A DNA stretch of 37,766 bases, taken from Bryobacterales bacterium. GTDB lineage: Bacteria; Acidobacteriota; Terriglobia; Bryobacterales; Bryobacteraceae. Location of the stretch: assembly GCA_025462945.1 (NCBI GenBank), contig JAOAPO010000201.1, forward strand, positions 1 through 37,766, written 5' to 3'. Made by a program: the position numbers and the translations under genes. The notes below the pieces were generated by a model, which was not told the origin of the DNA, did no database searches, and was given only the letters and a program-made list of their open reading frames with translations. How positions within the stretch are numbered: the first letter of the stretch is position 1; each line of letters starts with the position of its first letter. Positions 8,786 through 30,963 of this stretch are shown piece after piece.

Positions 8786-8821
8786 GTGGTCAGTATGCAG
8801 TAGTCACTAGTGACTAGTCAA
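8786..8821. promoter_or_regulatory. Divergent operator-promoter region with nested palindromes
   Basis: The interval between two divergent regulator genes holds a perfect 14-base palindrome, AGTCACTAGTGACT (8802-8815), overlapping a second perfect palindrome, TGACTAGTCA (8811-8820). On the minus strand TTGACT (8821-8816) and CATACT (8797-8792) are 18 bases apart and resemble -35 and -10 boxes of a leftward promoter. The palindromes lie between and over these boxes, where a bound repressor would block transcription. The repressor GTG (8810) falls inside the palindromes. Promoter boxes are imperfect and unproven. Confidence 0.6.
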
Positions 8822-9166
8822 TGGTCGAAAGAGAACTTTTTGCATAATTTAGGCGCTGCTATAAAAGAACTCCGGGGCACGCGGAAATGGACGCAAGATG
8901 ACCTTCATGTGAGGTTGAATGTGTCAATGTCAACTGTTGTCCGATATGAAGCCAATGGAAAGGTGGAGTTAACTACCGCCGCCAGAATGGCTTACTGGGC
9001 GATTGAGGCCGGTCGAGCCGACTTGGCTCGACAGTTCCGCGACGCCATTGTGAGCGAACTGGGCTCAGATGTTGTGAACCTGATTCAGGAGGATTTGAGC
9101 GGTGCCGAAAGTGAAAAGAAAACCGGTGAGCCGGGTATTGTGCATCAGAGGAAGCTTCGAGCCTGA
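8810..9166 (+). CDS. XRE-family helix-turn-helix repressor
   Basis: This 118-residue protein has a Cro/C1-type helix-turn-helix in residues 10-60: LGAAIKELRGTRKWTQDDLHVRLNVSMS (described in part) followed by STVVRYEANGKVEL. It is the rightward partner of the ribbon-helix-helix gene and probably the lysogeny repressor or an antagonist of it. The GTG start overlaps the operator palindrome and has no Shine-Dalgarno sequence, so a leaderless transcript or a downstream TTG start (near 8839) are both possible. Its C-terminus overlaps the next gene by 65 bases. There is no peptidase domain of the LexA/CI type, so induction would not be by RecA-stimulated self-cleavage. Confidence 0.82.
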   Translation: MTSQWSKENFLHNLGAAIKELRGTRKWTQDDLHVRLNVSMSTVVRYEANGKVELTTAARMAYWAIEAGRADLARQFRDAIVSELGSDVVNLIQEDLSGAESEKKTGEPGIVHQRKLRA

Positions 9167-9359
9167 CACCGTTACACGCGAAGAGCTTGCGACCGCAGCC
9201 GAAAAACAGGCCACGGCTTGGCTGGCCGAGAAGAACGCTCGTGAGTACGTTCAGGGGATCGAAGCGCGATTGATGGCCGGCGCGGCGGTTTCTGACTGCG
9301 AGTTCGAGTTCGACCGAACGCTCCAAATGGTCAGGTCAAAGAAAGTTAAGGCCGGATGA
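9102..9359 (+). CDS. Small uncharacterised protein of the repressor operon
   Basis: The product is 85 residues. The GTG start at 9102 follows AGGAGG nine bases upstream, a strong ribosome site that supports a real gene despite the 65-base overlap with the repressor. The protein is mostly helical, with AAEKQATAWLAEKNAREYV in the middle and a basic end (RSKKVKAG). I recognise no family. Its stop overlaps the next start as ATGA, tying it to the secreted protein that follows. Confidence 0.72.
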   Translation: MPKVKRKPVSRVLCIRGSFEPDTVTREELATAAEKQATAWLAEKNAREYVQGIEARLMAGAAVSDCEFEFDRTLQMVRSKKVKAG

Positions 9360-9952
9360 ATCGCGGGCTCATACTTACGGTGATTCTGCTGCTACGTCCC
9401 GCATTGGGCATCTGCCAGTCCGAGACTACAAGTTCATCAATGGCTCACCGGCCCAAGGTTAACGACTCGCTGCAGTGGAAAGAGGAGCCGATTGAATTCA
9501 AAGGGGTTGCTTTTGGCTCGAACTTCAAAGACTTCGCCGCGTCCGTAACAATACCCGGCGCTGGCAACTATTGCGTTTCTCGCATAGAGCCACCAGCTTG
9601 CGTGCCTAAGCTGAAGGTTGGCGATTTTTCGATCGATCTTGCATTCATCTTTGATGCCAACAAACTTTCGCGTGTGGTTGGGACGTTCCCCGTTAAGAAC
9701 TTCCCCGACGTAGTCGACATGTTCGAAGGCAAGTACGGGAGCGCTCACAGCTCTGAGTTGTCATCCGTCCAATCAAATGCTGGAGTAAATGCCGAGCAGG
9801 CGCGCTTGACATGGGCGGGACCGCACGTTGTTATCTCACTACGTCGCTTCGGGGAAACTATCGACCGTGGAATTTTCTCCATCTCAACGGTTGCAGTTCT
9901 TGAGCGAGATTCGGTTGAGATGGACGCCGCGAAGAAGAACGCACTCAATTAG
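9356..9952 (+). CDS. Predicted secreted protein of the repressor operon
   Basis: This 198-residue protein starts with a positively charged residue and a hydrophobic core (MNRGLILTVILLLRPALG), a clear Sec signal peptide. Cleavage is likely soon after, near ICQS. The cysteine there does not fit a good lipobox. The mature part has two further cysteines (NYC and PPAC) and motifs such as FKGVAFGSNFKDFAA and LAFIFDANKLSRV, resembling periplasmic beta-rich proteins. The role is unknown. Co-expression with the repressor suggests it is made during lysogeny, as with superinfection exclusion or host-conversion proteins (inference). Confidence 0.72.
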   Translation: MNRGLILTVILLLRPALGICQSETTSSSMAHRPKVNDSLQWKEEPIEFKGVAFGSNFKDFAASVTIPGAGNYCVSRIEPPACVPKLKVGDFSIDLAFIFDANKLSRVVGTFPVKNFPDVVDMFEGKYGSAHSSELSSVQSNAGVNAEQARLTWAGPHVVISLRRFGETIDRGIFSISTVAVLERDSVEMDAAKKNALN

Positions 9953-12698: not shown

Positions 12699-13520
12699 TC
12701 AGTAGCTCGGGTACCATTTTGTGGTTCCGGCGTCGTAGCAGAGTTCAAGCATTTTGTTGACCACGGCTGTTGAGGCCGAGGCGATATTGCCGCCCGTTGT
12801 AGTGGTGAATGCGGCATCCGGGATCAACTCAATACAGCCGCCAGCGCCCGCCACGGCGAATGGTGTCGGCGGGGTGATGGTTGCGACAGGGGTTGTTCCG
12901 GTGATGTGGTTTATGCGGTTTACGGGCGCGATCGTGGTCGCGCTGGCGATGGTCGCCACGGTGTCAACGTCGAAGCGGCGCTTTAGGTCTCCACCGACGC
13001 CACCTGCCCCGGTGCCAACTTCGAGCACCCCTGCCGCATTTCGGCTGACACTGAGGTCCGGAGCACCAGCGAAGATGCTGCTTGAGTTCTGCCAGATGAG
13101 CTTCATAGAGGTAGCGGCGTTGTAATTCGAGCCGATTTGCCCCGCGCTGCTACCGATCACGTAGCCCGTTGAAGCGTTGATAAGCCCAGTTACGTTGATC
13201 TTGTAAGTGGAACCTGGGGCGCAATTCCCCACGCCCAGCGTATGGTTCGTGGCGTCCCAGCAGAAGTTTGTTGCGTCTTCCGCCAGCGTGCCCGCCGCAC
13301 TTACGTAGGGGACCGGGCCGGGGTTGCCCCCCACCGTCAGGCTGCCCACCACGCACGTGTCGCAGGCTATGGTGCCGGCCGCTGTAATCGGGCCGCCCGT
13401 GATCGGCGAGCTGGTGGATATGCTCGTGACAGACCCGCTGGGCCCGGGAATACTGGCGAACTGCCCCAGCGCCATAGTAGCGGTGAGGATAAGGCTTGCA
13501 AGTAGGTTCTTCGTTTTCAT
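12699..13520 (-). CDS. Fibre-like protein with a Sec signal peptide
   Basis: This 273-residue protein starts with a textbook signal peptide (MKTKNLLASLILTATMALGQ). The mature part is rich in S, T, G and A with many short repeats (SITGGPITAAGT-like), as in the shaft of phage fibres, and ends in a compact C-terminal domain with KRRFDVDTVATI, ELIPDAAFTTTTGG and KWYPSY. That C-terminal type is common at the ends of phage structural fibres. The start at 13520 is supported by AAGGA upstream. An export signal on a fibre-like protein is unusual, since virion proteins assemble in the cytoplasm. It may be exported to the cell surface instead of joining the virion. Confidence 0.75.
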   Translation of the reverse strand: MKTKNLLASLILTATMALGQFASIPGPSGSVTSISTSSPITGGPITAAGTIACDTCVVGSLTVGGNPGPVPYVSAAGTLAEDATNFCWDATNHTLGVGNCAPGSTYKINVTGLINASTGYVIGSSAGQIGSNYNAATSMKLIWQNSSSIFAGAPDLSVSRNAAGVLEVGTGAGGVGGDLKRRFDVDTVATIASATTIAPVNRINHITGTTPVATITPPTPFAVAGAGGCIELIPDAAFTTTTGGNIASASTAVVNKMLELCYDAGTTKWYPSY

Positions 13521-13630: not shown

Positions 13631-15688
13631 TTAGATCGTGTGAGTGTGTGCGGCTCCAGCAGACGGCCCGCTGGTAACCGTGCCCGTTGCTGCCTTCGCT
13701 GCCAGCGCTGCCGTCAGCCCGGAGATGTCGCCAATGCCGAGGCCGAGTGCCGCTTTTACTGCCGCAACCAATGCAGCAAAGTTGGCGTAGTTCGCCCCCG
13801 TCCCGCCGTTCGAGGTCGCAAGTTGCCCTGTGACCTCGGCGGCGAGGTCGATAGCCCCCGACACAAGAACCTTCGAGGCGTTCGTTTTCGTCGGAAGGGA
13901 AGCAGTTAGCCCCAGCACCTGGAGGTTGCCGCTGAGCAGCTGGCTGCCGGTCACCGATAGCCCGCTGTCTATCGTTACGGTGCCTGACGCGCCTTTCAGC
14001 GGCGCATTGCTCAGAAGCACCTTGCCGCCGTCGATTCGGAAAATCTCTGTGCCTGCGATGCAGAATACTATGGTCCGATCCATGTCGGCATTCGTGTTGA
14101 AGCCGCACAGCTCAACAGAGACCGAAGAACTAGGCGAGGGTATGCTCGTCGAAGGAGGCACGGGGATACCGCCACCAGCCACTAGCTTGAAATAGCCGTC
14201 AGCATTGTAGGGGAAGATCGATGTGCCTGCAATGACCCCGCGCCCGTAATAGTTCGCTCCCGGTCGAACCATCGTGTTGCCGGTTGAGCCGTAGAGGTTC
14301 ACCGCTCCGGTCGGGTCAATCCTGTACAGCGGGTTCCCGTCGCCGTCTACCGGGGTCGCATCGAAGACCTTCGCCAGGGTTGTCGTGCTTACGTCTGGCG
14401 TGCGGATGACTGCCGTGTTGTCGTAAGCGTAGTTGTTCTCAAAGTACAGGTTGCAGGTGATGTTATCCGGGTTAACGACATCCACGATTGCATTGAGCAC
14501 CCCGAAGAATGCGCAGTTCGTGACGTGCAGGGAGATGCGCGAGGTGGGGTACTGGGCAGTGGTGGACGCGAGGTTGATTTGGAACGGATACGACACGCCC
14601 CCCGAAAGGAAGATGCGGCAGTCATCAAACCGCAGATGTTCCATTTCGAGTGTTTTAGCGGCAGCCGAAGTCACGCTCAGGACCGCGTGGCTTGGCGCGC
14701 CCGTCCCCGAGGTGTTGAACTCGCCCGAATGAAAGGTAACCTTCTGGAGGACCGAGTTATGCGATGTATTGTCCACACGAACGCCGTACTTGCAGTTCTC
14801 GGTGTAGAAGGCGTAGACACTGCCGGTCTGGAGGTTCCTGATATCGTACGCCGCCTCAAGATTTCCGATGACGGGCGCGATGAAACTGATCGTCAGGTTG
14901 CCGTAAAGGACCGCATCGTCAAAGAGGACCCCTACTGAGCCAGCGGCGTAAGATGGCGGAAAGATCGTGAGCCGATGGAAGGCAATACCATCAGCATCGG
15001 ACAATCTGAGGCCAGCCTGAAACGTGCCGGTACCGGTAGCGCTGATCGCAATTCCCGGCCAGACCACCTCACTCATGTTCTGCACGTTGATCATGTAGCG
15101 CATGGTCGCGCCATTCGCCGCAACGAACCCAATGTTCTGGACTTGTGCCGCGAATACACGGGTGACGCTATCCCCAATGGTGAGCCCGTCGCCAGATCCA
15201 TAGAACTTGATAGCTGGCTGTGCGCTTCCGAGCCCCACCTGGCCGTAGATGCCGGGGTTTCCTGTCTTGATATACAGGCCCACCGCGAACTTCGGGGAGC
15301 CAGCGACAGCACCAAACCCGGAAGAGTTGATCGGGATCGAGAACGTTGTGGCGGAAATCCGCGTTGCCCGATAAAGCCCGTTCGCGCTCAACCAGGAGCC
15401 GGTGAATCCAGTAATGATGACCGGTGACCTGTCAGCCGGGGCGCTCGCCACAGTGAAGATAGCCGCGCTGGCGTTGGTAGCGGACGATATGGCCGCAGCA
15501 GCCGCGCAGGTGGCCTTATAAACCCCAGGAGGAACCAGCATTCCGGTGCGATTCGCGCAGGCGTAGTCCAGCGCGTCCTGCAGCGGGATTAAGTCATCTG
15601 CCGAGTCATCGCCGCGCGCCTGGACCATCCTGACGCTGAGGTGATCCCCCATGAAGTCGGACGGGGTCTGGCTTGCTTGTGTGGTCAT
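13631..15688 (-). CDS. Tailspike or tail fibre with a pectate-lyase-like beta helix
   Basis: This 685-residue protein has an N-terminal region with DDSADDLIPLQDALDYACA and MLVPPGVYKATC, the signature of the pectate-lyase-3 / beta-helix domain used by tailspikes that bind or cut host polysaccharide. The middle is beta-rich with many N, G and T residues. The last 85 residues look like a fibre tip: TNASKVLVSGAIDLAAEVTG, SNGGTGANYAN, and the end AGAAHTHTI. No enzymatic residues are identified. It shares one base with the stop of the tip protein gene, so it is the next gene of the tail operon. It is likely the receptor-binding or depolymerase protein. Confidence 0.82.
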   Translation of the reverse strand: MTTQASQTPSDFMGDHLSVRMVQARGDDSADDLIPLQDALDYACANRTGMLVPPGVYKATCAAAAAISSATNASAAIFTVASAPADRSPVIITGFTGSWLSANGLYRATRISATTFSIPINSSGFGAVAGSPKFAVGLYIKTGNPGIYGQVGLGSAQPAIKFYGSGDGLTIGDSVTRVFAAQVQNIGFVAANGATMRYMINVQNMSEVVWPGIAISATGTGTFQAGLRLSDADGIAFHRLTIFPPSYAAGSVGVLFDDAVLYGNLTISFIAPVIGNLEAAYDIRNLQTGSVYAFYTENCKYGVRVDNTSHNSVLQKVTFHSGEFNTSGTGAPSHAVLSVTSAAAKTLEMEHLRFDDCRIFLSGGVSYPFQINLASTTAQYPTSRISLHVTNCAFFGVLNAIVDVVNPDNITCNLYFENNYAYDNTAVIRTPDVSTTTLAKVFDATPVDGDGNPLYRIDPTGAVNLYGSTGNTMVRPGANYYGRGVIAGTSIFPYNADGYFKLVAGGGIPVPPSTSIPSPSSSVSVELCGFNTNADMDRTIVFCIAGTEIFRIDGGKVLLSNAPLKGASGTVTIDSGLSVTGSQLLSGNLQVLGLTASLPTKTNASKVLVSGAIDLAAEVTGQLATSNGGTGANYANFAALVAAVKAALGLGIGDISGLTAALAAKAATGTVTSGPSAGAAHTHTI

Positions 15689-18600
15689 TAGAACACCACC
15701 GGGCTTCCAATGATTGTGACGCTGGACGGCGACGTGCTTTCCGGCGGCAAGATGTACATCTCCCGAAGCCCGTCCGCGTCCTGAATGGACTCGTTACCGT
15801 CCTCGTCCAGCGTGCAGACCCAAACCAGAGCCACCGCCCCGCCGAGGTCTCCGGCTGGGATCGTGGCAATTACCGGAGCGTCGCCAGTGCCCGGGATCAC
15901 GATGTTGTCGAACGGCTTCGTGTCGATGCTGATGATGTCGGCGGGTTCGACGATAATGTAGGCCGTCCCGGCGCCGGGAGTCCGGGGGAACGGCGTCACC
16001 GTATGCGTGTCGCTGGTGTTCGAGAGGACCGTGACCGTGTCGCCCGGCAGTGCGGAGCCAGTCGGGTCGTAGAGAATCATTAGACGCTTGTCTTTGTCCT
16101 GGTCGACATCGAGGCCGGTCGGAGCAAAGGGAGATGCCCAGCCGGTGTCCCTGATCGTGGTCGAAGTCGCTGACGTGGCGTAGGTCCGGACGAGAACGAG
16201 ATCGCCCACGTCGATCGGCGTGCCGATGTTCCCGATTGAGATCAGGCCCGCTGCGTCGTTCGCGCTGATGGTGAAATCTACGCCGGTCTGGGTGTCCGGC
16301 AGTCCGTACTTGCTGATCAAGCTGAGCTTTGCATTGACGAGCGAGTTCACCGTTAGGGCAGACGGAATGCTGATCGTTACGTCCGTAGAGGTTGCCGCCG
16401 TCACGGTGGCAACGAAGCGCCCGCCGTGAACCTCCCGAGCAGCCTTCACGCGGAATTTGGTCGCCCGGGTGTCCGGCGGGCCGTATCCAGCCAGATAGCT
16501 GATCGTGTCGATGTTCTGATTCCCGGAGACAGGCGTCACGATGGTCGCCTGGCTGAGCATGTGATCCTTGTCGCGCCCGATGAATAGCTGGGCGTGGACC
16601 GTGCCGGCCGGGAAGTTCGCCGCGAATGTGACGCGCGACGTCGAGGTGACGATACCGAAGGTGAGGTAACCGGAAGCGGGCGAGTAGAGCCCGTTCGAGT
16701 CGATGCCGTACATGCGGGCGATCCAGTCACCGAGTGGGAGCGAGTTGGCAGGCCGGGCAGTCACCACGCCAGCCTCATCGATGACCGGAGCGGCCAGAGT
16801 TGGCGAGAGGCGATTCACTGGCGGATACCCGGAGATCTCCAGATCGCCGCCACGCTGGGCGAGGTCGACGCCCTTTCGGAACGGAGCCGAGAATACGATC
16901 TCGGAGAATGGCCGCCATGGAAGCGGACGCCGCGCTCCGGAAGCTCTGATGTTGGCAGTGACCCAGTCAGAAGGGGTGCCGCCCGCGTTGACGCTCCGGA
17001 TCGAGACGGTGTACTGCTCGTGGTCGGTGACGTTGACGATCCGGACCTTAGTCACGGAAGGGTTGACGCTGGGCATCCCCGTCCAGGTGGAAGCGGCGAG
17101 CAGCTTGTACCGGACCTCGATGTGCCCGCCGTTGGTCACGTATCCGTCCGTCGGGGCGGTCCATGAAACGAGGATCGCTGGGGTGATCTTGCCCTTGGGC
17201 CCGACGACGGCCGTGTCGGCATCGCTCTGCAGTGTGAGGCCGGTCGGCGGAGCTGGTGCACGTCCGTCGGGAATGGCCGGCTGCTGATAGCCTTGCGGGC
17301 TCAGTTCCTCCGAGGTACTCCAGTCGTAGATGTCGGCATCAGTCTCCTGGACATCGATCTCGGTGCCGAGCAGCGTCAGTTCATCCTCGCCTTGCTTATC
17401 GAAAGTGAAGCGGTGCGCGAGAACTTCCAGTTGCTTGCCGCTCCATCCGAAGTAGGCGAGGTCCATGGTGACGACGTCCATCGGCGCGATCGAGTAGCCC
17501 GTCATGTTGAACCGGAACGTTCCCGTTCCCTGATGGCGTCTTCGAAGCAGTTCGATCTTGCAGAGGCGCTGGGCCGTCGCGGGCGAGATCGTGAACGGAA
17601 GCTGGATGTCGAGCCAGCGGCGTTCGTCACCGTCGGCTGCGAGGTTCGCATCGGAAGCGTAGCCGTGCGCCACGTCCTGAGCGTAGGCTGGAACATCCGA
17701 CGCCTGCCAGTTGTTCGCCGGGCTGATGTAGGTTCCCTTGACGCCGTTGTAAAGGTCCCGGATGCTTACGGTTGGCTTCCAGCGGAACGGGCCGGACATG
17801 CTGCCGAGGGTCGGAGCCGCCAGTGGGGAGCTACCGTTCCAGGCTGCAGGCCAGATGACGAACTGGCCGCCCTGATAAGTGAGCCGTCCGGCGCACGCGG
17901 TGAGCAGGTTCTGCAGGATCTCGCCGCGGCGCACGCTGAGGTCGAACTTCCCGTTCAGCGCGTAACGTGGCTCGGTTCCGCCGATCGCGAGCGAGACAGC
18001 CTCGTCGCAGATGTCAGCAGCGGCGATCAGTGGCGCAATCGGGATCTCGGAACCGTACGTCGCCTTGAAGCCGTAAGTCTGGTTTGCGAGGTAATCGGCA
18101 ATGACGAGGGCCGCGTTCTCGGTGTAGCCTGTGGTCCCCGGGTCGCCATAGTCGCCGAGGCGCGGGTCGTAGATGTCGTTCTTCCCGCTGACAAGGAAGC
18201 TGATCTGGGGGAGTCCGCCGGAGAAAACCTTCTCGTCGTAGTGGAATCGGAGGAACACGGCCGTCTTGCCCTGCAGGAGATGGGCCGCGGTCCATGGGTT
18301 GTTGGGCGCGACGAGCAGATCGCCAGTGTCCCCGTCGTTCGGTGTCCCGGAGAGCATGCCGGGGAACGTCGAGACGTGATTGCCCAGCAGGACTTCCATG
18401 TGGACCTTCCGCTCGTAATCCGCCCAGGCTGTCGTCACGCTGCCATGCGCGCCCAGATCGGCAACGTCGGACCCGCCGCACAGGTAGGTGAACGTCATGT
18501 GGTCAACGGAAACCGACTCAACTGGCCAGCGGCCGAGCATGGTCAGGTCGCTTACGCCGTCGATCGTGAGCCGGTCGCCAGCGGTCAGCAGTGGAATCGC

Positions 18601-19131
18601 CGCTGCCAGAATGACTGTGATTACGCCTTTTGTTCTGCTGATGTGCAAGATGTTCTCCGTTTGCTGAAGAGGTTGGAAGCTGTCGTACGTGCCATCGCCG
18701 TAGCTTTCGAGCTGTACGAACTGTTTGTTAAAGAGAAGCCGGTCGATGCTGGCGCACGGATGCGAGGCAAGGACGATGACCATGTCGAGGTACTTGTTCT
18801 CGTCGCCCCACTCGTGCTCGTAAACCACGGTCCCGCCGATGACAGTGCGGCCGTAGATGACGACGTGCGGCGCGATTGGGTTGACGCTGGCGGAACCGGA
18901 GACTCCACCGCCTCCGCTGATAGCGCCAGAACCAGAAGCGCCGGCGTCTCCAGAGCCAGAAATCAGCGTCCCGACACCAGCGAGGACCATTCCGGCGCCC
19001 GCCGAGATCAGTCCCGCAGCGAATCCGGTCGCGTGGATGATGGCGGCGAGCACTCCGATGCCAGCGCCAGCGGTGGTCACGGCGAGAACAACGCCCGCGG
19101 CAATCGCCGCAACGCCGATTACTACCTTCAT
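15688..19131 (-). CDS. Phage tail tip / central fibre protein (gpJ-like) with fibronectin type III domain
   Basis: This 1147-residue protein has a hydrophobic, glycine-rich start (MKVVIGVAAIAAGV, then many A, G and I to about residue 60), a beta-rich core, and a fibronectin type III domain at roughly 620-715 (beginning APAPPTGLTLQ, including ILVSWTAPTDG and YTVSIRSVNAGG). The order tape measure, distal tail proteins, DUF6950, this gene, tailspike is that of the tip of siphovirus tails, so it probably forms the central hub or fibre that contacts the host. The start at 19131 (ATG, overlapping the previous stop as ATGA, preceded by GGGGTGG) is preferred to a GTG nine bases upstream. Confidence 0.85.
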   Translation of the reverse strand: MKVVIGVAAIAAGVVLAVTTAGAGIGVLAAIIHATGFAAGLISAGAGMVLAGVGTLISGSGDAGASGSGAISGGGGVSGSASVNPIAPHVVIYGRTVIGGTVVYEHEWGDENKYLDMVIVLASHPCASIDRLLFNKQFVQLESYGDGTYDSFQPLQQTENILHISRTKGVITVILAAAIPLLTAGDRLTIDGVSDLTMLGRWPVESVSVDHMTFTYLCGGSDVADLGAHGSVTTAWADYERKVHMEVLLGNHVSTFPGMLSGTPNDGDTGDLLVAPNNPWTAAHLLQGKTAVFLRFHYDEKVFSGGLPQISFLVSGKNDIYDPRLGDYGDPGTTGYTENAALVIADYLANQTYGFKATYGSEIPIAPLIAAADICDEAVSLAIGGTEPRYALNGKFDLSVRRGEILQNLLTACAGRLTYQGGQFVIWPAAWNGSSPLAAPTLGSMSGPFRWKPTVSIRDLYNGVKGTYISPANNWQASDVPAYAQDVAHGYASDANLAADGDERRWLDIQLPFTISPATAQRLCKIELLRRRHQGTGTFRFNMTGYSIAPMDVVTMDLAYFGWSGKQLEVLAHRFTFDKQGEDELTLLGTEIDVQETDADIYDWSTSEELSPQGYQQPAIPDGRAPAPPTGLTLQSDADTAVVGPKGKITPAILVSWTAPTDGYVTNGGHIEVRYKLLAASTWTGMPSVNPSVTKVRIVNVTDHEQYTVSIRSVNAGGTPSDWVTANIRASGARRPLPWRPFSEIVFSAPFRKGVDLAQRGGDLEISGYPPVNRLSPTLAAPVIDEAGVVTARPANSLPLGDWIARMYGIDSNGLYSPASGYLTFGIVTSTSRVTFAANFPAGTVHAQLFIGRDKDHMLSQATIVTPVSGNQNIDTISYLAGYGPPDTRATKFRVKAAREVHGGRFVATVTAATSTDVTISIPSALTVNSLVNAKLSLISKYGLPDTQTGVDFTISANDAAGLISIGNIGTPIDVGDLVLVRTYATSATSTTIRDTGWASPFAPTGLDVDQDKDKRLMILYDPTGSALPGDTVTVLSNTSDTHTVTPFPRTPGAGTAYIIVEPADIISIDTKPFDNIVIPGTGDAPVIATIPAGDLGGAVALVWVCTLDEDGNESIQDADGLREMYILPPESTSPSSVTIIGSPVVF

Positions 19132-19553
19132 ACGTGCCACCCCATGACTACGGTCGATAACGGAAGTCGCACTGTGCCTGCGTTTGAAACGGCCAGGACG
19201 TCGCGCCCAGTGAGCGACACCAGCCCGAGCAGGTAACCGCGAGCGCCCCAGCGGACGAGCGCCATGTCTCCGCGCCGAAGAGATGCGGCCAGCGGCATGC
19301 CGTGAACGGCTGCTGCGTCCTCAGCCACGGCGCGGATGGATGCCCGCCCTGTCTTCTCCCGAATAGCCCGCAGCGCTTCCTTGCGGGTCCGGTACCGCGC
19401 GCGAAAGTGAGCCGCGATGTCAGTTCCCGTCATGGCTTCGATCGCCCCGCAGACGAAAAGGCAGCAGTCCCACGTCCCGTACTGGAAACGGTCGGACCGG
19501 TGCTCGTTGATGAATCGGTCGAGCGCCGATTGCCAGTTTCCGAGTCGCGTCAT
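19128..19553 (-). CDS. DUF6950 family tail protein (NlpC/P60-like)
   Basis: This 141-residue protein has the family signature FQYGTWDCCLFVCGAIEAMTG (described in part) near residue 25, where a cysteine follows W-D as in NlpC/P60 peptidases, and HGMPLAASLRRGDMALV further on, with a conserved G-D-M/L pattern. Family members in phage tails are thought to act as peptidoglycan-targeting or structural cysteine-peptidase-like proteins, but the usual catalytic histidine cannot be confirmed here. It lies directly before the tip protein, where lambda gpK-like proteins sit. Confidence 0.8.
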   Translation of the reverse strand: MTRLGNWQSALDRFINEHRSDRFQYGTWDCCLFVCGAIEAMTGTDIAAHFRARYRTRKEALRAIREKTGRASIRAVAEDAAAVHGMPLAASLRRGDMALVRWGARGYLLGLVSLTGRDVLAVSNAGTVRLPLSTVVMGWHV

Positions 19554-25398: not shown

Positions 25399-25797
25399 TT
25401 AGTTGCTGGCGTACCAGATTGAGAATTCGAGCATCCGGCGGTACGTCCGCGCCGCGTCGTCGAAAAAGTCGTGTTGGCTGGTCCAGAAACATTCCTGAAC
25501 CTGCGTTGCATCGGCGTCGGTCAGTGTGCCGGAATAGCCGTCGAGAACTCGGGTGATTGCTTTCGCGAGTCGGAGAGTGGAAAGGGGACTTGAGCCGAAG
25601 ACGTCGATCTGAACCTCCCACTCGGTCAGGCCGTCGATGCCCCGGAGGTGCGGCGTAGCTGCCCCATGGATCGTCGTGTAGCTCCAGCTGGGGAGCGCGG
25701 TGCCTTTGGGCAAGGTGGCCATGAAGCCGCCAGCCGTGCAGAGGGCAGCGACAGCGCTGTCTGTCTGAACAAGCTTCTGGATGCCTTCTTCGATCAC
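25399..25797 (-). CDS. Tail completion protein (DUF3168, gp17-like)
   Basis: The product is 132 residues and matches the DUF3168 tail-terminator family in its helix-strand pattern: a start with IQKLVQTDSAVAAL, then LPSWSYTTIHG, a central GLTEWEVQIDVFG, a helix with RLAKAITRVLDGY, and a C-terminal RRMLEFSIWY. These proteins close the tail tube at the head end. It starts with GTG, overlapping the stop of the glycosyltransferase gene as GTGA. Confidence 0.8.
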   Translation of the reverse strand: MIEEGIQKLVQTDSAVAALCTAGGFMATLPKGTALPSWSYTTIHGAATPHLRGIDGLTEWEVQIDVFGSSPLSTLRLAKAITRVLDGYSGTLTDADATQVQECFWTSQHDFFDDAARTYRRMLEFSIWYASN

Positions 25798-26426
25798 AGT
25801 GGCAGCCAGTTATCCCCAACGGAAATCACGCCGCCAGTGTTGCCAGCATGAAAGTTCGCGTACATGAACTCGCCAGCCCGGGCGGCCGTCATCTGATGGG
25901 CCCAGCAGGCCTCGTCCGCGAAGTCGCGATCTTCGCCGACGTTCTTCGATGCGAAGGGGTGAGACTCCCACCATGTGCGACGGTAAACAAGCGACGTGCC
26001 GGCAGCAAAGAACGGCGTCCCGAGATACATCCATGAGCGATCGCCGTCGGTGTACCGGAGGGTGTGATATCCGGTCACGGCCTTGCCGGATTCGAGCAGC
26101 CGGGTAACCTGATCGGTGAGACGGCCGGGAGCGGAGTGGTCGTCATCGTCGAAAACCGCGATGATCTCCCCGTTTGCGGCGTAGCTCCCGGCGTTCCGCT
26201 TGTCGCCAACGGTACCGCTGAACTCGATTACCCTGATGCGCGGATCGGCTGGGACGAGATCGGCTACGTCGTCACCGTCGACCACAATGACCAGCTCGCG
26301 GGGCTCGTAGTCCTGAGCCAGAAAGCAAGCGATGGCCTTCGGAAGCCACTCGCGCCGGTTGCGGGTGACGCAAAGGCAGGAGATGAGCGGGAGCGTCGGT
26401 GTTGATGGCGTGGCGGTCTTTTTCAT
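25794..26426 (-). CDS. Family 2 glycosyltransferase
   Basis: This 210-residue GT-A fold enzyme has an N-terminal LISCLCVTRNRREWLPKAI (about 14-32), the D-G-D-D element, and FDDDDHSAP at 92-100, where an aspartate cluster binds the metal and nucleotide sugar. GEDRDFADEA (164-173) matches the usual E-D catalytic motif, and WWESHPF lies just before it. No membrane anchor is seen, so it acts in the cytoplasm. It is joined to a head-tail adaptor gene on one side (ATGA) and to the tail completion gene on the other (GTGA). That suggests modification of a virion protein, though host surface modification is also possible. The ATG at 26426 replaces a longer frame that overlaps the adaptor gene. Confidence 0.85.
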   Translation of the reverse strand: MKKTATPSTPTLPLISCLCVTRNRREWLPKAIACFLAQDYEPRELVIVVDGDDVADLVPADPRIRVIEFSGTVGDKRNAGSYAANGEIIAVFDDDDHSAPGRLTDQVTRLLESGKAVTGYHTLRYTDGDRSWMYLGTPFFAAGTSLVYRRTWWESHPFASKNVGEDRDFADEACWAHQMTAARAGEFMYANFHAGNTGGVISVGDNWLPL

Positions 26427-26761
26427 TGGTTGGCTCCGAGGGCGATGCAGGTGAGAACGAGCAGCGCGTTCCGTTCTTCGACGTTGTCGATGGACTCGAT
26501 CAGGTACGTTCCGTTCGGCCCGATGATGCGCATATTGGCGAGGATGCCCGGCTGCCAGCGGATCGTGATCTCCATCGGCACCTGGGCGGTGGTTTGTCCC
26601 GACTGGATGGCTGCGCGACCTTTCGCGGGTACGATCTTCGCGAAAGCGGTCGTGAAGTCGCTCCACGCCACCGTGGCGCCGGAACCGTCAGTCGTCGCGG
26701 ACTGCTGCTGAATGGTGCAAGAGTGCCGCAGCTCGCCGGGGTTGATGGAGGGCCAGCTCAA
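26423..26761 (-). CDS. Head-tail adaptor (head closure) protein
   Basis: This 112-residue beta-barrel-type protein of the SPP1 gp16 / Pfam head-tail joining class is recognised from PGELRHSCTIQQQ near the N-terminus and a conserved centre with SDFTTAFAKIVPAKG and VPMEITIRW. The end VEERNALLVLTCIAL matches the last strands. It uses a TTG start overlapping the holin stop as TTGA. The position between holin and glycosyltransferase is unusual, since connector genes normally stand together. Confidence 0.83.
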   Translation of the reverse strand: MSWPSINPGELRHSCTIQQQSATTDGSGATVAWSDFTTAFAKIVPAKGRAAIQSGQTTAQVPMEITIRWQPGILANMRIIGPNGTYLIESIDNVEERNALLVLTCIALGANQ

Positions 26762-27264
26762 AGCTTGTCCTCGATACGGTGTGCGGTAGCGTTGGTGTCC
26801 GTGGCCACCGCCTCGCTCCGTTGGGCGCTCAGGCTGTCGACGTCATCCTGCCTGGCGTTGGAGCCCCGGACGCTCTTGGCTGCTGCCAGTGCCGTCATCA
26901 GCGGTGACGGGATCGGCACACCGAGCGCGGCGAAGTTCTGGATCAGGCTAATCAGTTCGTTGATGATGAAGCCGAGCCCGCAAATACTTTCGAGGCCAGC
27001 GGAAAAGCCCGCCTGATTCTCGGCGACGTGCAACGCCAGCAACAGGGTCAGCGTGGCCACTTTTTTGACCAGTCCCTTCCAGCCAACCCGGGCGCAGAGC
27101 TTGCCGCCCGTAATCGCGATCATGAGGCCCGCCATATAGTCCATGGCCATCAAAACAAGGAGAGTCCGGACCAAGCCGGGGATCTGAAGCCATTGCGTGA
27201 TCGCAAAGGCGACGATCCACTTCAGTAGCGCCAGGCTACTGTACTCCTTTTCGTCGATGATCAT
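26758..27264 (-). CDS. Phage holin of the toxin-secretion/lysis holin type
   Basis: This 168-residue protein has several hydrophobic segments: LLKWIVAFAITQWL, LVRTLLVLMAMDYMAGLMIAI (described in part), and VATLTLLLALHV. The pattern M-D-Y-x-x-G-L is a mark of the holin family 4_1 (phi29-like/TcdE). The C-terminal tail is polar. A longer frame starts upstream but overlaps the preceding gene. The ATG at 27264 gives the family's usual size. The protein should oligomerise in the inner membrane to release or activate endolysin. Confidence 0.78.
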   Translation of the reverse strand: MIIDEKEYSSLALLKWIVAFAITQWLQIPGLVRTLLVLMAMDYMAGLMIAITGGKLCARVGWKGLVKKVATLTLLLALHVAENQAGFSAGLESICGLGFIINELISLIQNFAALGVPIPSPLMTALAAAKSVRGSNARQDDVDSLSAQRSEAVATDTNATAHRIEDKL

Positions 27265-27377
27265 GATGCCTGGCCCATCTTGTAAACTGTGGTCTGCATT
27301 TGCGGCCCTCCTTGGGGGTCGTACTTGCTGTTTCGCCCGGGTGCCGGTTCTCAAGGCCGGTGCCCGGTGTGAATCGT

Positions 27378-27803
27378 TCATTGAGGCGGATACTTCTTTT
27401 GCATTTCCACCAGCGCGGCCAGCTTTGAGGCGTCCGCTACTTCCAGAAACCATCCGCCATTCACAACAGTGGAACCCAGCAGGGACTCGCCTTCTTCGTA
27501 CCTCGCCTTGGTCGAAGGATCATGAAACACCTCCTGCTGCTGCATGACAATCGCGTGAGTGCAGGTTGCAAAATTCTTGCTCTTCACGCTGGCGATCCAG
27601 TAGCCATTGCGCCAACAAGCATCCGTGTAGTTTATTTCGAGGCCCAAGGGACCAAGAAACTTTTGCCATTTGAAGAACCATGCCGGGTCGTCAACGTTCG
27701 GCAGTTCAGGGTCGTTCGGGATACCAAGCAGCGACGTAACGCACGCCCGAAAGCAGTCACCCTTCCCCTCGTCAACTATCAACTGCATGTTCTTGCGCGT
27801 CAA
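27378..27803 (-). CDS. Cysteine-peptidase-like protein (C39-like)
   Basis: This 141-residue protein shows a catalytic-type layout. C17 lies in GDCFRACVTSLLGI, the hallmark of a papain/C39-like N-terminus. H83 lies in TCTHAIVMQ and D95 in FHDPS, fitting a C-H-D triad. A tryptophan-rich middle (AWFFKWQKFLG) is also seen in this family, which is common in phages and bacteria but of unknown substrate. The TTG start has GAGGTGG upstream and overlaps the DUF5675 stop (TTGA). An internal ATG at 27788 is an alternative. Placed between DUF5675 and the holin, it could be part of a lysis system. Confidence 0.72.
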   Translation of the reverse strand: MTRKNMQLIVDEGKGDCFRACVTSLLGIPNDPELPNVDDPAWFFKWQKFLGPLGLEINYTDACWRNGYWIASVKSKNFATCTHAIVMQQQEVFHDPSTKARYEEGESLLGSTVVNGGWFLEVADASKLAALVEMQKKYPPQ

Positions 27804-28240
27804 CTTACCACCTCACAAGGGTTCCGCACTTCGATCCAAACTTCGCCAGCGCCCTGAATTCCCGCCTGAATCTTCCTAAACAGCGCTTCGAAGGCAAGGC
27901 GGCTCTGAGCGACGCCAGTTGAGAGGCGGATCGAGCCGGGGAGAATACAGCCGTCGGTGTCGTCGGCATCGTTGCCGGGGTGAATCCGGATCCCGCCGAA
28001 GCCGGGAACGCAGAGCAGGAGCGGAAGCAGCCGGCTGAAGCGTTTCGAAAAGTCGATGATGACGCGGTACCGGCCGGACGGGATGGCTGTCTTGCCGGGA
28101 ACCTTCCACTGCTCGACGGGAACGCCGGGGACCTCCCGAACCTCGTCCTCGCACGTCCAGCACTCGTGAACGCCCTCGATCAGGAGTGCGCCCAGGGTGA
28201 AGCCGTGAACCGATGGCGACCGCTGCAGTACTAGTTCCAT
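27800..28240 (-). CDS. DUF5675 family protein, possible lysis protein
   Basis: This 146-residue protein matches DUF5675: an N-terminal part with GALLIEGVHECWTCEDE, then VPGKTAIPSGRYRVIIDFS, LPLLLCVPGFGGIRIHPGN (described in part), and DDTDGCILPG. The histidine in I-R-I-H and the D-T-D-G-C motif are family hallmarks. Its function is not proven, but the family often stands near holins, so a peptidoglycan or lysis role is plausible. The ATG at 28240 overlaps the stop of a tiny upstream frame (TGATG). Confidence 0.75.
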   Translation of the reverse strand: MELVLQRSPSVHGFTLGALLIEGVHECWTCEDEVREVPGVPVEQWKVPGKTAIPSGRYRVIIDFSKRFSRLLPLLLCVPGFGGIRIHPGNDADDTDGCILPGSIRLSTGVAQSRLAFEALFRKIQAGIQGAGEVWIEVRNPCEVVS

Positions 28241-28308
28241 CACTTCGCTGGTGCCTTGTCCTTCGCGGCGATGGCCGCATTGAGTACTTTCTGTAGGTTT
28301 GTCATCAT
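28240..28308 (-). CDS. 22-residue leader-like peptide
   Basis: This very short frame has two ATGs (28308, 28305) after GAGGGA, a good ribosome site, and encodes MMTNLQKVLNAAIAAKDKAP and a final AK. Its stop overlaps the next ATG (TGATG), so it may serve to couple translation of DUF5675. It may also be no gene at all. Confidence 0.35.
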   Translation of the reverse strand: MMTNLQKVLNAAIAAKDKAPAK

Positions 28309-28328
28309 TCCCTCGATTGCGGTACCTG

Positions 28329-28907
28329 CTATTTCAGCTTTTCCACGGTGACGTCAAGGTTGTAAACCGGGGAACCCGTAACGGCATTGAAAACGGTTTG
28401 GTACTGCAGGTTTTTCGCAGTGCCTAGACGCAGAACAACGCACCCGCCGCTATTGCCGGTGATCGACGCCATGTTGACGTTGTTCCCCAGAATCGAGGCT
28501 GCTGGGGTCAGGCCGTTCCCTGAGTCGGCCAGGGAGTAAATGCCCATGTTGCCGCCGGTTCCGGTGGTGGTCAGCCACGCTGCGACGCACATGCGGTAGG
28601 TGCCCGCAACGGTGGAGGTGTAAAAGGTTGTCGCACCCAATGCAGTGGTCTGCCCTGTTACGGAAACGCTTCCAACGACAGGTGCGGCGGTTGAGGCAGT
28701 CGCAACGGCAGCGGCAGTTGCGCCCCCAACGAAGGCCACAGTGGTGACGGCTGACCCGGCCGGGCTTGTCACGTCGCCGGTATGTGCCGGGAGGCGAGCG
28801 GCGGGCAGCGTACCCGCCGATAAGTCCGACGCACTGGTAACTGTCGGAATGCTGGACAACTGGCCCCACGCAAGAGAGGCAGACAGTAGGGCGATAGCGA
28901 TTCGCAT
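28329..28907 (-). CDS. Fibre-like protein with signal peptide (192 aa)
   Basis: The ATG at 28907 gives a signal peptide (MRIAIALLSASLAWGQ) followed by LSSIPTVTSASDLSAGTLP and PAHTGDVTSPAGS, a pattern of tail fibre shaft sequences. The rest is small-residue-rich and beta-like, with a compact C-terminal domain (VVLRLGTAKNLQYQTVF, VYNLDVTVEKLK). It resembles a fibre tip that has been given an export signal. The signal end and the next residues (G-Q-L-S-S-I-P) resemble the start of the fibre-like protein at 12699 (G-Q-F-A-S-I-P). A one-base overlap couples it to the preceding gene. Confidence 0.7.
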   Translation of the reverse strand: MRIAIALLSASLAWGQLSSIPTVTSASDLSAGTLPAARLPAHTGDVTSPAGSAVTTVAFVGGATAAAVATASTAAPVVGSVSVTGQTTALGATTFYTSTVAGTYRMCVAAWLTTTGTGGNMGIYSLADSGNGLTPAASILGNNVNMASITGNSGGCVVLRLGTAKNLQYQTVFNAVTGSPVYNLDVTVEKLK

Positions 28908-29272
28908 TACTGCCTCCACCATGCAGACCACTTACAGCCGGACCCCGACGCTGAGATCGAGAACCCGCCAGAGATGTAGGCACCCCCAATGACCGAGGTC
29001 AGTGAAACGACCTGATTGGCTGCGACTGCAACGGCTGGCATGACGTCAATCGCGTTACCGTCAGTGAGCGTGATGGTCCTCGCCGACGTGCAGGAGATCC
29101 AGCCGCCAGTGAGGGTCAGTGTTGACGTGGTGATGACGGTGGGTGTCGTGGGAACTGACTGCGCCTCCATCACGTAGCAGTTCTGGAACTGTCCGGGCGG
29201 GCAGGTGCGCGGGGTTGCTGATTGCGCGAGCGCAACAGCGCAGAAGGCGAGAGCGAGAAAGAGTGCCTTCAT
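28907..29272 (-). CDS. Small secreted fibre-like protein
   Basis: The product is 121 residues. The signal peptide is MKALFLALAFCAVALAQ, followed by a segment with two cysteines (TCPPGQFQNC) and a beta-rich domain (TSTLTLTGGWISCTSARTITL, then AIDVMPAVAVAANQVVSL), ending GCKWSAWWRQ. It is probably exported, with cysteines able to form disulphides. The ending is of the sort seen at C-termini of phage head or tail decorations. It stands directly before the other secreted fibre-like gene. Confidence 0.65.
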   Translation of the reverse strand: MKALFLALAFCAVALAQSATPRTCPPGQFQNCYVMEAQSVPTTPTVITTSTLTLTGGWISCTSARTITLTDGNAIDVMPAVAVAANQVVSLTSVIGGAYISGGFSISASGSGCKWSAWWRQ

Positions 29273-29274
29273 GG

Positions 29275-29559
29275 CTATTTAGCCCCCTTGAAAATGCCGG
29301 AACGGAAAAGGTTGAGCGCCGTTACCGTGAAGCTGATGAGGTTCGCGATCGCTGCCACTCGCGGGTCCGTCGAAACGGCTGCGATCGCTCCGCTGGACTC
29401 GGTCACGATGTCCAGCGCGTGGCTGAGCTTCTCATGGCCAGCCCCGCCATTTTGTTCGGCAGCCTCGATCGCGGCCACGATCTTATGGGGCGCTGGGAGC
29501 TCCGACGTCGCAGCGGCGGTGGGAGCGATCTCCGTCGGTACTTTCTTTGTTTTCGGCAT
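29275..29559 (-). CDS. Small uncharacterised phage protein
   Basis: The product is 94 residues, starting MPKTKKVPTEIAPTAAA. A helical part follows, with VAAIEAAEQNGGAGHEKLSH, and a hydrophobic C-terminal helix with AIANLISFTVTALNLFRSG. Similar small proteins with a G-H-E-K-L and A-L-N-x-F ending occur near lysis genes of other phages, but the family has no assigned role. It lies between the connector gene and the secreted proteins. A weak holin-like or membrane-associated function cannot be excluded. Confidence 0.6.
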   Translation of the reverse strand: MPKTKKVPTEIAPTAAATSELPAPHKIVAAIEAAEQNGGAGHEKLSHALDIVTESSGAIAAVSTDPRVAAIANLISFTVTALNLFRSGIFKGAK

Positions 29560-29570
29560 TGCAGAAACCT

Positions 29571-30284
29571 CTATCGGGTGGGGTTGAAGTCGATCACGGC
29601 TTGTGACCAGAGGGCTTGTTCGATGTGCTTCGGGACCTGGCCTTCGATGCCGCGGTTCTCATACCAGAAGTTCGCGAGCTGCATGATCGCGACTGCCAAG
29701 GTCGCCGGGATGCCGGTAACGACAGTGGACACGGGCTGCTGGCTCGGGGTGGAACCCGCGATCGTGGATGTGCTGACTACCGTCGGGTCCGGGTCGTAGC
29801 CAGCCGTGAAGGGGATCTTCACCGCGTTCGCGACATACAGCGATGCGGGCCAGTCGCTACCGGGTAGCGGTGTGATCCGGGCTGGTTCGGAGATGCGGTC
29901 AAGGATGAAGTTCGTGCCCTGCGTCAGCGATGTGATCGTGCCGTCGGACGCGACAACCTGAATCGGGTCAACGCTGATGCCAGGCGGGAATGGCAGCTTG
30001 ATTTCGCGCGATCGCGAGAACAGTCCACGGTTGTAGTCGTGGAAGTTTGAACGCTCCCAGTTGGAGTCTGGATTGTAAGGGAAGGCGTCCAGCACCATGC
30101 AGAACTTGCGCTGTGCGATAGCTCGGCCCGTGATGGTCTCTGCGGACTCTCGGGCCGCCTTGAGCAAGGTCGATATCGTCGTGTCATCTGATGTAAGCGC
30201 CGAGGGGATGCGCATCCACTGCCGCATGGAAGCAAGCGAGACGGGCTCTGCGGTCGGCAGTTCGATTTGTCGGCAGTAGCTCAT
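29571..30284 (-). CDS. Head-tail connector protein (gp6 / phiE125 gp8-like)
   Basis: This 237-residue protein begins with SYCRQIELPTAEPVSLASMR, then MRIPSALTSDDTTISTLLKAA (described in part), AETITGRAIAQRKF, and later ISVDPIQVVASDG. These match the phiE125 gp8 / head-tail connector pattern: an N-terminal helical domain and a beta-sandwich. It ends with a longer helical tail (ATLAVAIMQLANFWYENRG). It forms the connector ring between portal and tail. The start overlaps the previous stop as ATGA. Confidence 0.85.
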   Translation of the reverse strand: MSYCRQIELPTAEPVSLASMRQWMRIPSALTSDDTTISTLLKAARESAETITGRAIAQRKFCMVLDAFPYNPDSNWERSNFHDYNRGLFSRSREIKLPFPPGISVDPIQVVASDGTITSLTQGTNFILDRISEPARITPLPGSDWPASLYVANAVKIPFTAGYDPDPTVVSTSTIAGSTPSQQPVSTVVTGIPATLAVAIMQLANFWYENRGIEGQVPKHIEQALWSQAVIDFNPTR

Positions 30285-30445
30285 TTGCGCTTCTTCTTGC
30301 GTGGCTTAGCGGGTCTAACTTCCTGTTTTTTGACCACGTTTGAGGTGTCGCGATGGCTTTCACGGCCGCAGGTCGGGCAGATTGCCGTGTGTTCCGGCTC
30401 TCGGCCAAACGGCCGGCGGCAGTAATCGCAGTGTTCGTCGATCAT
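30281..30445 (-). CDS. Small zinc-ribbon protein
   Basis: The product is 54 residues. Four cysteines in two pairs (CDYC at 6-9 and CPTC at 23-26) form a zinc ribbon, followed by a basic tail (PAKPRKKKRK). The basic tail suggests nucleic acid binding. The ATG at 30445 overlaps the HNH gene stop as ATGA, and the stop overlaps the connector start. It may have come with the HNH gene. Confidence 0.65.
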   Translation of the reverse strand: MIDEHCDYCRRPFGREPEHTAICPTCGRESHRDTSNVVKKQEVRPAKPRKKKRK

Positions 30446-30963
30446 GAGGGGAGTCGAAAATATGCAGTCATTCCGAACCATTCTTTATGGGTGAATCGCG
30501 CGCCTTTGCCGTGATTACATCGCTTACAGCAGGCGACCACGTTCTGAGCCGAATACCCGAGGGCGTTGTCTTTTCGGTCCAGATTGTAAGCCTGGGCGCC
30601 CCTGTTCACGTTGTGTTCGGCCCATACCAAAGGAGCCAGGCAGTAGTGGCATTCTGGCTGGATCGCCGCGACAAATTCGTCATAAGTAAGCGAGAACCCG
30701 TGCCGCTCTCGCGCCGCCGAGCGTGATGCCTTCAGGAATAGCGCCTCAAACGGACGAAGCCGCATGCGAGGCTTGACAGCGCACCGGCGGCAGCCCTTAC
30801 TGCGGCCGGCGATTAACTGATGGCTGGAGACCCTTTGCGTCTTATTGCCGCATTTGCAGGAGCACAGCCAGATCTGCACGTCTCCGCGCTTCCGCGCAGC
30901 TACCTTCTCTAAGACTGCCCAGGCTCCAAATGTCTGCCCGACTAAGGCGGCTTTTTTGTGCAT
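30442..30963 (-). CDS. HNH homing-type endonuclease
   Basis: This 173-residue protein has two parts. The N-terminal part (about 8-65), with LVGQTFGAWAVLEK, CSCKCGN and SKGCRRC, is the zinc-binding domain common in phage homing nucleases. The C-terminal part has CHYC, NLDRKDNALGYSAQNVVACC and KRCNHGKG, the HNH motif with a metal-binding cysteine set. Such genes insert next to virion genes as selfish elements. It lies after the major capsid gene, separated by a GC hairpin. Confidence 0.82.
   Translation of the reverse strand: MHKKAALVGQTFGAWAVLEKVAARKRGDVQIWLCSCKCGNKTQRVSSHQLIAGRSKGCRRCAVKPRMRLRPFEALFLKASRSAARERHGFSLTYDEFVAAIQPECHYCLAPLVWAEHNVNRGAQAYNLDRKDNALGYSAQNVVACCKRCNHGKGARFTHKEWFGMTAYFRLPS

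Follow-up and report, generated by a model that had tools for sequence, protein, structure and literature searches.

Small tail-fibre-like proteins tagged for export are encoded among the late genes of a phage in a Bryobacterales assembly, and in related phages larger fibres encoded among the tail genes are tagged likewise. As judged from sequence, the export of such fibre-derived domains is well supported by the signal character retained, by export-specific cysteines and by the recurrence of the arrangement in related phages. The window, that is, the whole stretch of DNA analysed (37,766 bases), is one whole contig (C28) of an assembly of 6.5 Mb in 640 contigs. Its recognised phage genes all lie on the minus strand, and include those for the small and large terminase, portal, protease, major head protein, connector, tail completion, Dit, J and tailspike-like proteins, the tube and the tape measure being weak assignments. 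Neither tRNA genes nor repeats at the contig ends were found on searching for them.

A previous reading of the sequence alone had pointed to an adjacent pair of reading frames with signal peptides at 28329-29272, and both frames were confirmed. The first, SP1 (28907..29272, minus strand), encodes a fibre-type beta protein of 121 aa with a signal peptide predicted at 29225-29272, and the second, SP2 (28329..28907, minus strand), a fibre-type protein of 192 aa (signal peptide predicted at 28863-28907) which bears a GDVT fibre motif and possibly a C1q-like C-terminal domain. A third fibre-like protein predicted to be exported, SP3 (12699..13520, minus strand; 273 aa with six cysteines, signal peptide predicted at 13464-13520), was found by a scan of the minus strand. 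It lies downstream of a tailspike-like protein (13631..15688, minus strand; phrog_7458, tail spike, at E 0.0038 only) which has no signal peptide by our own score and is likely a virion fibre, and which follows the J-like tail tip protein (15688..19140, minus strand; phrog_5616, E 2.8e-78; phrog_31, E 6.9e-46).

The sequence-only reading had set the pair in the connector region. The pair is indeed near the connector, but the place is really the slot between a gp6-like head-tail connector (29571..30284, minus strand; PF05135, E 9e-7; phrog_442, E 2.3e-14), its upstream border, and a gp17-like tail completion protein (25399..25797, minus strand; PF11367, E 4.1e-11), its downstream border. A gene for a 94-aa protein (29275..29559, minus strand) is located directly upstream of SP1, and SP2 is followed, on the same strand, by genes for a DUF5675 protein (27800..28243; PF18925, E 4.7e-26), a 141-aa phage protein (27378..27803; phrog_5845, E 1.1e-7), a holin of the Phage_holin_4_1 type (26758..27453; PF05105, E 1.1e-21 over residues 90-193, the real start being probably within the frame) and a family 2 glycosyltransferase (25794..26666; PF00535, E 1.5e-15). 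No endolysin was identified. Since the genes are so tightly packed (11 bases from the connector to the 94-aa gene, 2 bases from this to SP1, and a TAATG overlap of SP1 and SP2), SP1 and SP2 have no room for a promoter of their own right ahead of them. Moreover, of the two promoter-like sites in 27300-30600 (0.9 expected, on the sigma-70 consensus only), neither precedes SP1 or SP2. Elsewhere in the window, a 198-aa frame on the plus strand (9356-9952) with a signal-peptide-like start and no Pfam match adjoins an HTH regulator (8810-9166).

Signal peptides were evaluated with a rule-based score of our own, not SignalP, and compared with a null of 5000 shuffles of residues 2-40. The n, h and c regions, with small residues at -1/-3, are strong in SP1, moderate in SP3 and weak, taken alone, in SP2. 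The SP1 N-terminus reads MKALFLALAFCAVALA followed by QSATPRTC, with the signal ending ALA before Q, and its score was reached by 1 of 5000 shuffles; the predicted signal peptide is thus beyond chance by itself. The SP3 score was reached by 92 of 5000 shuffles and that of SP2 by 465, so that the earlier description of both peptides of the pair as clear holds for SP1 and not for SP2 on its own, whose case rests on context. The listed frame of SP2 runs from a GTG at 28931 to a stop at 28329, the ATG at 28907, which overlaps the SP1 stop, giving the 192-aa product; its N-terminus reads MRIAIALLSASLAWG followed by QLSS, with the signal ending AWG before Q. Exported proteins of two host-family genomes (G053 and G102) that match SP2 start alike (L098, MRISLALLLSAAAWAQ, against MRIAIALLSASLAWGQ; 9/16 identical by our count), and this was counted as support for the SP2 signal. 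The G053 alignment with SP2 covers residues 1-143 at 28%; these are GDSL lipase-like exported proteins (PF13472), and kinship with SP2 was not accepted.

Among the other late products of the window (n=25, listed starts), a score of at least 33 was reached by J only (53), with the remaining 24 below it. We take the J value for a false positive from its hydrophobic N-terminus; several J relatives likewise have a hydrophobic start that imitates a signal peptide. That such starts can mislead, together with the weakness of SP2 alone, speaks for the hydrophobic N-termini being unused, with the proteins cytoplasmic or mere remnants. We regard this as very unlikely, given the cysteine parity, the cysteines that exported relatives have and unexported ones lack, and signals which diverge and yet are retained, all described below.

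The fibre-like character ascribed to the pair stands on motif matches and weak folds, and has no family match behind it: SP1 and SP2 matched nothing in Pfam at E<=1 and nothing in PHROG at E<=0.1. SP2 matched 51 viral loci, mostly within residues 25-100, which hold the fibre motif, in frames that read as fibres. Sequence searches of the viral contigs returned no relative of SP1, nothing for SP3 and no match to the J of the window, and SP2, SP3 and the fibre of L115 had no matches in the phage collection, where a fragment of L039 matched, over repeats, the fibres of 83 records. After removal of 11 near-copies, 40 SP2 relatives remained, 18 of which were called with a signal; on reading, two of these were doubtful and one more had been missed. 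The doubtful ones (L002 and L047) are apparently false positives, and the missed signal-peptide protein, L050, has one cysteine.

Disulfides can form in exported proteins, which tend to have even numbers of cysteines. The mature proteins contain four (SP1), two (SP2) and six (SP3), the positions being 11, 24, 32, 61 and 113 in SP1, where Cys 11 belongs to the signal and was excluded, and 107 and 156 in SP2. In an SP2 homologue without a signal (L093, with no phage structural family among the four neighbours tested), both positions are replaced. An SP1 homologue without a signal, located on a contig with an integrase (L096), has no cysteine opposite any of the four mature cysteines of SP1 and a single one elsewhere. 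The C-terminal domain of SP3 is common to L090, L091, L094, L095, L099 and L100 (alignment A1); among P22-like phages, the SP3-type protein of L095, on a contig with a P22-type portal and terminase, has neither signal nor cysteines, and those of L091 and L099 have a signal with four mature cysteines and two, respectively.

The same tendency was found on a larger scale. In a set of viral-locus frames (768, reduced to 605 after removing similar ones, with 12 frames scoring 30 to <33 excluded from both groups), even counts occurred in 23/25 cysteine-containing frames that reach 400 aa and bear a signal, compared with 50/112 of those without one (Fisher p about 1e-5), and in 33/40 compared with 190/424 when frames from 120 aa up were considered. 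The 40 SP2 relatives had 1.13 cysteines per 100 aa with a signal versus 0.36 without; even counts among them, by the automatic calls, were found in 13/14 with a signal and 7/15 without, becoming 11/13 and 7/14 once corrected (L048 has no cysteine). Odd counts also occur among signal-peptide fibres (L018, 3; the second protein of L025, 5; L165, 9; L139, 13). The 40-relative test, the 605-frame parity test and the signal comparison of 15 copies given below share sequences and are not independent, and parity does not tell which cysteines pair. With unexported homologues lacking the matching cysteines and even counts in signal-bearing frames, the signals look functional.

The larger kin (fibres of 485-3397 aa) extend these observations to tail genes. 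In L039, the baseplate region, which is myophage-like, encodes a signal-peptide fibre of 3397 aa, and in L139 and L141 signal-peptide fibres of 765 and 789 aa are located between the tape measure and Dit. When the fibres of L115 and L039 were used as query by their N-terminal part, L144-L148 were retrieved; here J is followed by signal-peptide fibres, the complete ones being 543-650 aa long. A further search with J of this type gave 25 loci, of which six end at most 104 bases from the J match and another (L170) has a J frame reaching the contig end, none of these being informative; in the informative contigs (n=18, near-copies included), a signal-peptide fibre was found downstream of J in 16. 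The two most distant J loci, L175 and L176, have none, L175 containing other signal-peptide proteins. Of the other frames in the J loci that are 250 aa or longer, 6/114 reached a score of 38. In 15 fibre copies picked by a stricter pattern, mean pairwise identity was 0.33 for the signal versus 0.73 for the next 110 residues, that is, the predicted signal peptides are retained while diverging. Even cysteine counts were found in 11/12 complete copies of the J-linked fibre. One relative, L152, which belongs to an Acidobacteriaceae metagenome assembly and is 75% identical, has a signal-like start with an unusual Pro before Gln. The host of the phage in the window is presumably an Acidobacteriota. 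L169 and L172 each carry a pair of signal-peptide fibres that share their N-terminal domain, one of the pair being inverted in L169, which suggests cassette exchange. L091 contains a 249-aa signal-peptide protein within a 267-aa frame, whose gene comes next after that for the major head protein in a P22-like phage (L091:9872-10621).

A rival reading takes the proteins for virion fibres matured outside, that is, exported, trimerised and oxidised in the periplasm, and docked on finished virions at lysis, with the conserved N-terminal domain as docking domain. In its favour, 13 of the 16 contigs with such a fibre have its start at most 700 bases from the J match; in L145, L148, L157 and L162 the fibre is the sole same-strand gene of at least 90 aa called from J up to the strand change (the contigs of L145 and L148 are also those of L153 and L159); the N-terminal domain is conserved; and 3 of 10 kin fragments (L039, L049, L020) had tail or appendage matches in PHROG. 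Nevertheless, the phage of the window retains a separate tailspike without a signal, and the N-terminal domain of the large kin, termed QN, is found alongside more than one type of tail and at three places in the late operon, a distribution that would be strange for a part that docks on a single virion protein. Its presence in both a siphophage-like tail module (L145) and a myophage-like one (L039), at 33-37% identity, suggests a host-side rather than a virion-side partner. The QN-domain searches were biased to signal-bearing copies, since the starting alignments include the signal, and the J search was not. Maturation of these fibres outside the cell, which we place next after the host-side reading, is possible, if rather unlikely, and its broader form, in which sipho-, myo- and P22-like phages would make up a class with Sec-exported, disulfide-bonded fibres put on virions only at lysis, we consider improbable but worth stating. 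A common origin of the phage QN domain and the N-terminal domain of host secreted proteins is not claimed (hhalign P 0.055).

The slot itself was followed through relatives of the connector (17 viral loci) and of the head protein (2 viral loci and 14/237 host-family genomes); 10 of the 19 viral loci were annotated and the slot was read in 12 among the matches listed, and seven host-family regions were fetched, of which six were annotated. The stretch from connector to gp17 varies among relatives. Family 2 glycosyltransferase genes were found in the slot of L104, L106, L110 and L113 (one gene tested each), and glycosyltransferases related to that of the window in the matching slot of L137 and L138. 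L115 has an 880-aa signal-peptide fibre together with a 124-aa signal-peptide protein, and L138 a 225-aa protein from a GTG start with a moderate signal score (36), adjoining its glycosyltransferase, which is 46% identical to that of the window. None of these signal-peptide proteins was found in the slot of L107, L108, L111, L112, L117, L118 and L119. The slot is likely a hotspot for envelope-modifying genes.

Secreted fibre-like proteins are also encoded on host-family chromosomes. SP3 has matches in 43/237 host-family genomes, several of its relatives being secreted proteins outside a recognised phage context. Together with the variable slot and the family 2 glycosyltransferases of the kin, this favours lysogenic-conversion adhesins (morons), exported fibres that would alter host attachment or matrix. 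A host-conversion gene would be expected with its own promoter, and both the late-operon packing and the absence of promoter-like sites ahead of SP1 and SP2 stand against such a role, which we judge to be quite unlikely. Among the genomes matching SP3, L064, L065, L078, L083 and L088 have secreted-looking frames of 616-768 aa with a shared N-terminal domain and tail-fibre-like middles. Runs of secreted fibre-like and very large cysteine-rich proteins were observed in L090:10280-16216, L092:9155-19550 and L094:6616-12623; beyond SP2- or SP3-like parts, no gene in them matched the phage proteins of the window, and the neighbours tested encode a cation efflux protein in L090 and a GH38 protein in L092. 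These runs are possibly domesticated phage fibres. In a same-genus contig, two more signal-peptide-like proteins adjoin the unexported SP1 homologue (L096:7706-9299).

SP2 shares a GDVT-type motif with the tail fibres and tailspikes of dsDNA phages, and SP3 and most of the large kin their position, but the tailspike of the window and the 22 SP2 relatives called signal-less (L050 wrongly so) have no signal, and these 22 have fewer cysteines. Lom of lambda, the exported product of a gene beside J, resembles the present proteins in its export and its J neighbour, but is an outer-membrane barrel and not fibre-like. Cor and Llp, which the sequence-only reading had invoked as acting by other means, are likewise small exported phage proteins; they are lipoproteins binding a transporter from the periplasmic side, whereas SP1 and SP2 look like fibre domains. 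SP1 and SP2 do not belong to this type, because the predicted +1 residue is Gln and no cysteine comes right after the predicted cleavage site. In the accessible part of PMC9586334, Llp is a periplasmic protein with a disulfide, encoded beside the receptor-binding protein pb5, which blocks FhuA allosterically and abolishes pb5-FhuA binding, and it is not described there as a fibre. A literature search gave no exported tail fibres announced in titles or abstracts among the matches listed, an absence that is weak evidence.

XepA, a pentamer encoded in the lytic cassette of prophage PBSX, is the nearest precedent for another function, a lysis aid in the form of a late exported beta-sandwich protein acting on the envelope. 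According to the available portion of PMC6834076, it is exported during phage development, has a beta-sandwich fold and is absent from mature particles. The likeness of XepA/YomS to SP1 and SP2 lies in their being phage proteins with known or predicted export and a gene in a lysis cassette, and possibly in a C2-like beta-sandwich fold: SP1 and SP2 adjoin the DUF5675 gene, followed by that of the phrog_5845 protein and then by the holin gene, two genes beyond that of DUF5675. Furthermore, the XepA structure 6i56 appears among the fold matches of SP2 (Z 8.2, 101 aligned, rmsd 3.0) and SP1 (Z 6.6, 87 aligned, rmsd 3.3), unrelated folds tying in both cases. The SP1 model is fair (pLDDT 73) and mainly beta; that of SP2 is poor (pLDDT 42.5), so that its fold matches are hints only, and its list at Z 8-9 ranks C1q, BclA, PRD1 P5 and a phage needle equally with XepA. 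Neither kinship of SP2 with C1q/TNF folds nor that of SP1 with nucleoplasmin, cupin and Ena folds, all rows of these fold lists, was accepted. Among PDB chains (phmmer, E<=1), SP2 returned no row and SP1 three unrelated, unconvincing ones, with XepA in neither; a distant relationship is possible. The XepA host is Gram-positive, and the accessible text of PMC6834076 gives no Sec signal and does not describe the protein as fibre-related. With large kin that are fibres of hundreds to thousands of residues, a lysis aid seems decidedly unlikely.

Our preferred explanation, put forward tentatively and with something short of even confidence, is that fibre-tip domains have been turned to export and occupy receptors, or surface, of the dying cell and of debris. 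It includes the idea of the sequence-only reading that exported copies of receptor-binding parts cover the receptor, of which the export part is well supported and receptor covering would be one way to read it. Its sequence-supported elements are the predicted signal peptides, the co-location with late genes, the cysteines in exported and not unexported relatives, and the recurrence in kin. SP1, SP2 and SP3 would be translated late from the head-tail transcription unit and cross the Sec translocon, and we infer that the signal peptide would be removed before the glutamine. They would form disulfides in the periplasm and remain in or on the envelope, to be released at lysis, and would occupy the receptors or surface polymers recognised by the fibres of the phage. 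The benefit would be to keep progeny from being lost on the dying cell or debris and to lower late superinfection. As regards the earlier proposal of superinfection block or debris protection, the position of the genes within the late head-tail unit makes action at the end of infection fit better than exclusion by a resident prophage.

A host-side role is favoured by the distribution of the N-terminal domain over tail types and operon places, and we also count for it that, in the available part of PMC12946066, a purified protein presumed to be receptor-binding prevents phage from adsorbing in vitro. Against it stand the weak SP2 signal and a home-made predictor that errs on J; the combination of a conserved N-terminal domain and variable ends, which is also typical of a virion fibre; the neighbouring lysis genes and weak XepA-like fold, which suit a lysis role; the host family's own secreted fibre-like proteins, which suit an adhesin; and the odd cysteine counts among signal-peptide fibres. 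The premise that virion proteins are not exported is unusable as proof, since in related phages signals are also present on large fibres encoded at the usual fibre positions.

Exported phage proteins have so far been known singly, as with Llp, Cor and XepA. If the present findings are true, the recurring retained signals in tail operons would imply that fibre domains are placed outside the cytoplasm by many uncultivated phages, where these domains would serve either to shield the progeny from the phage's own receptors or to complete the virions extracellularly. Either reading, if true, would alter the interpretation of tail-fibre genes in metagenomes.
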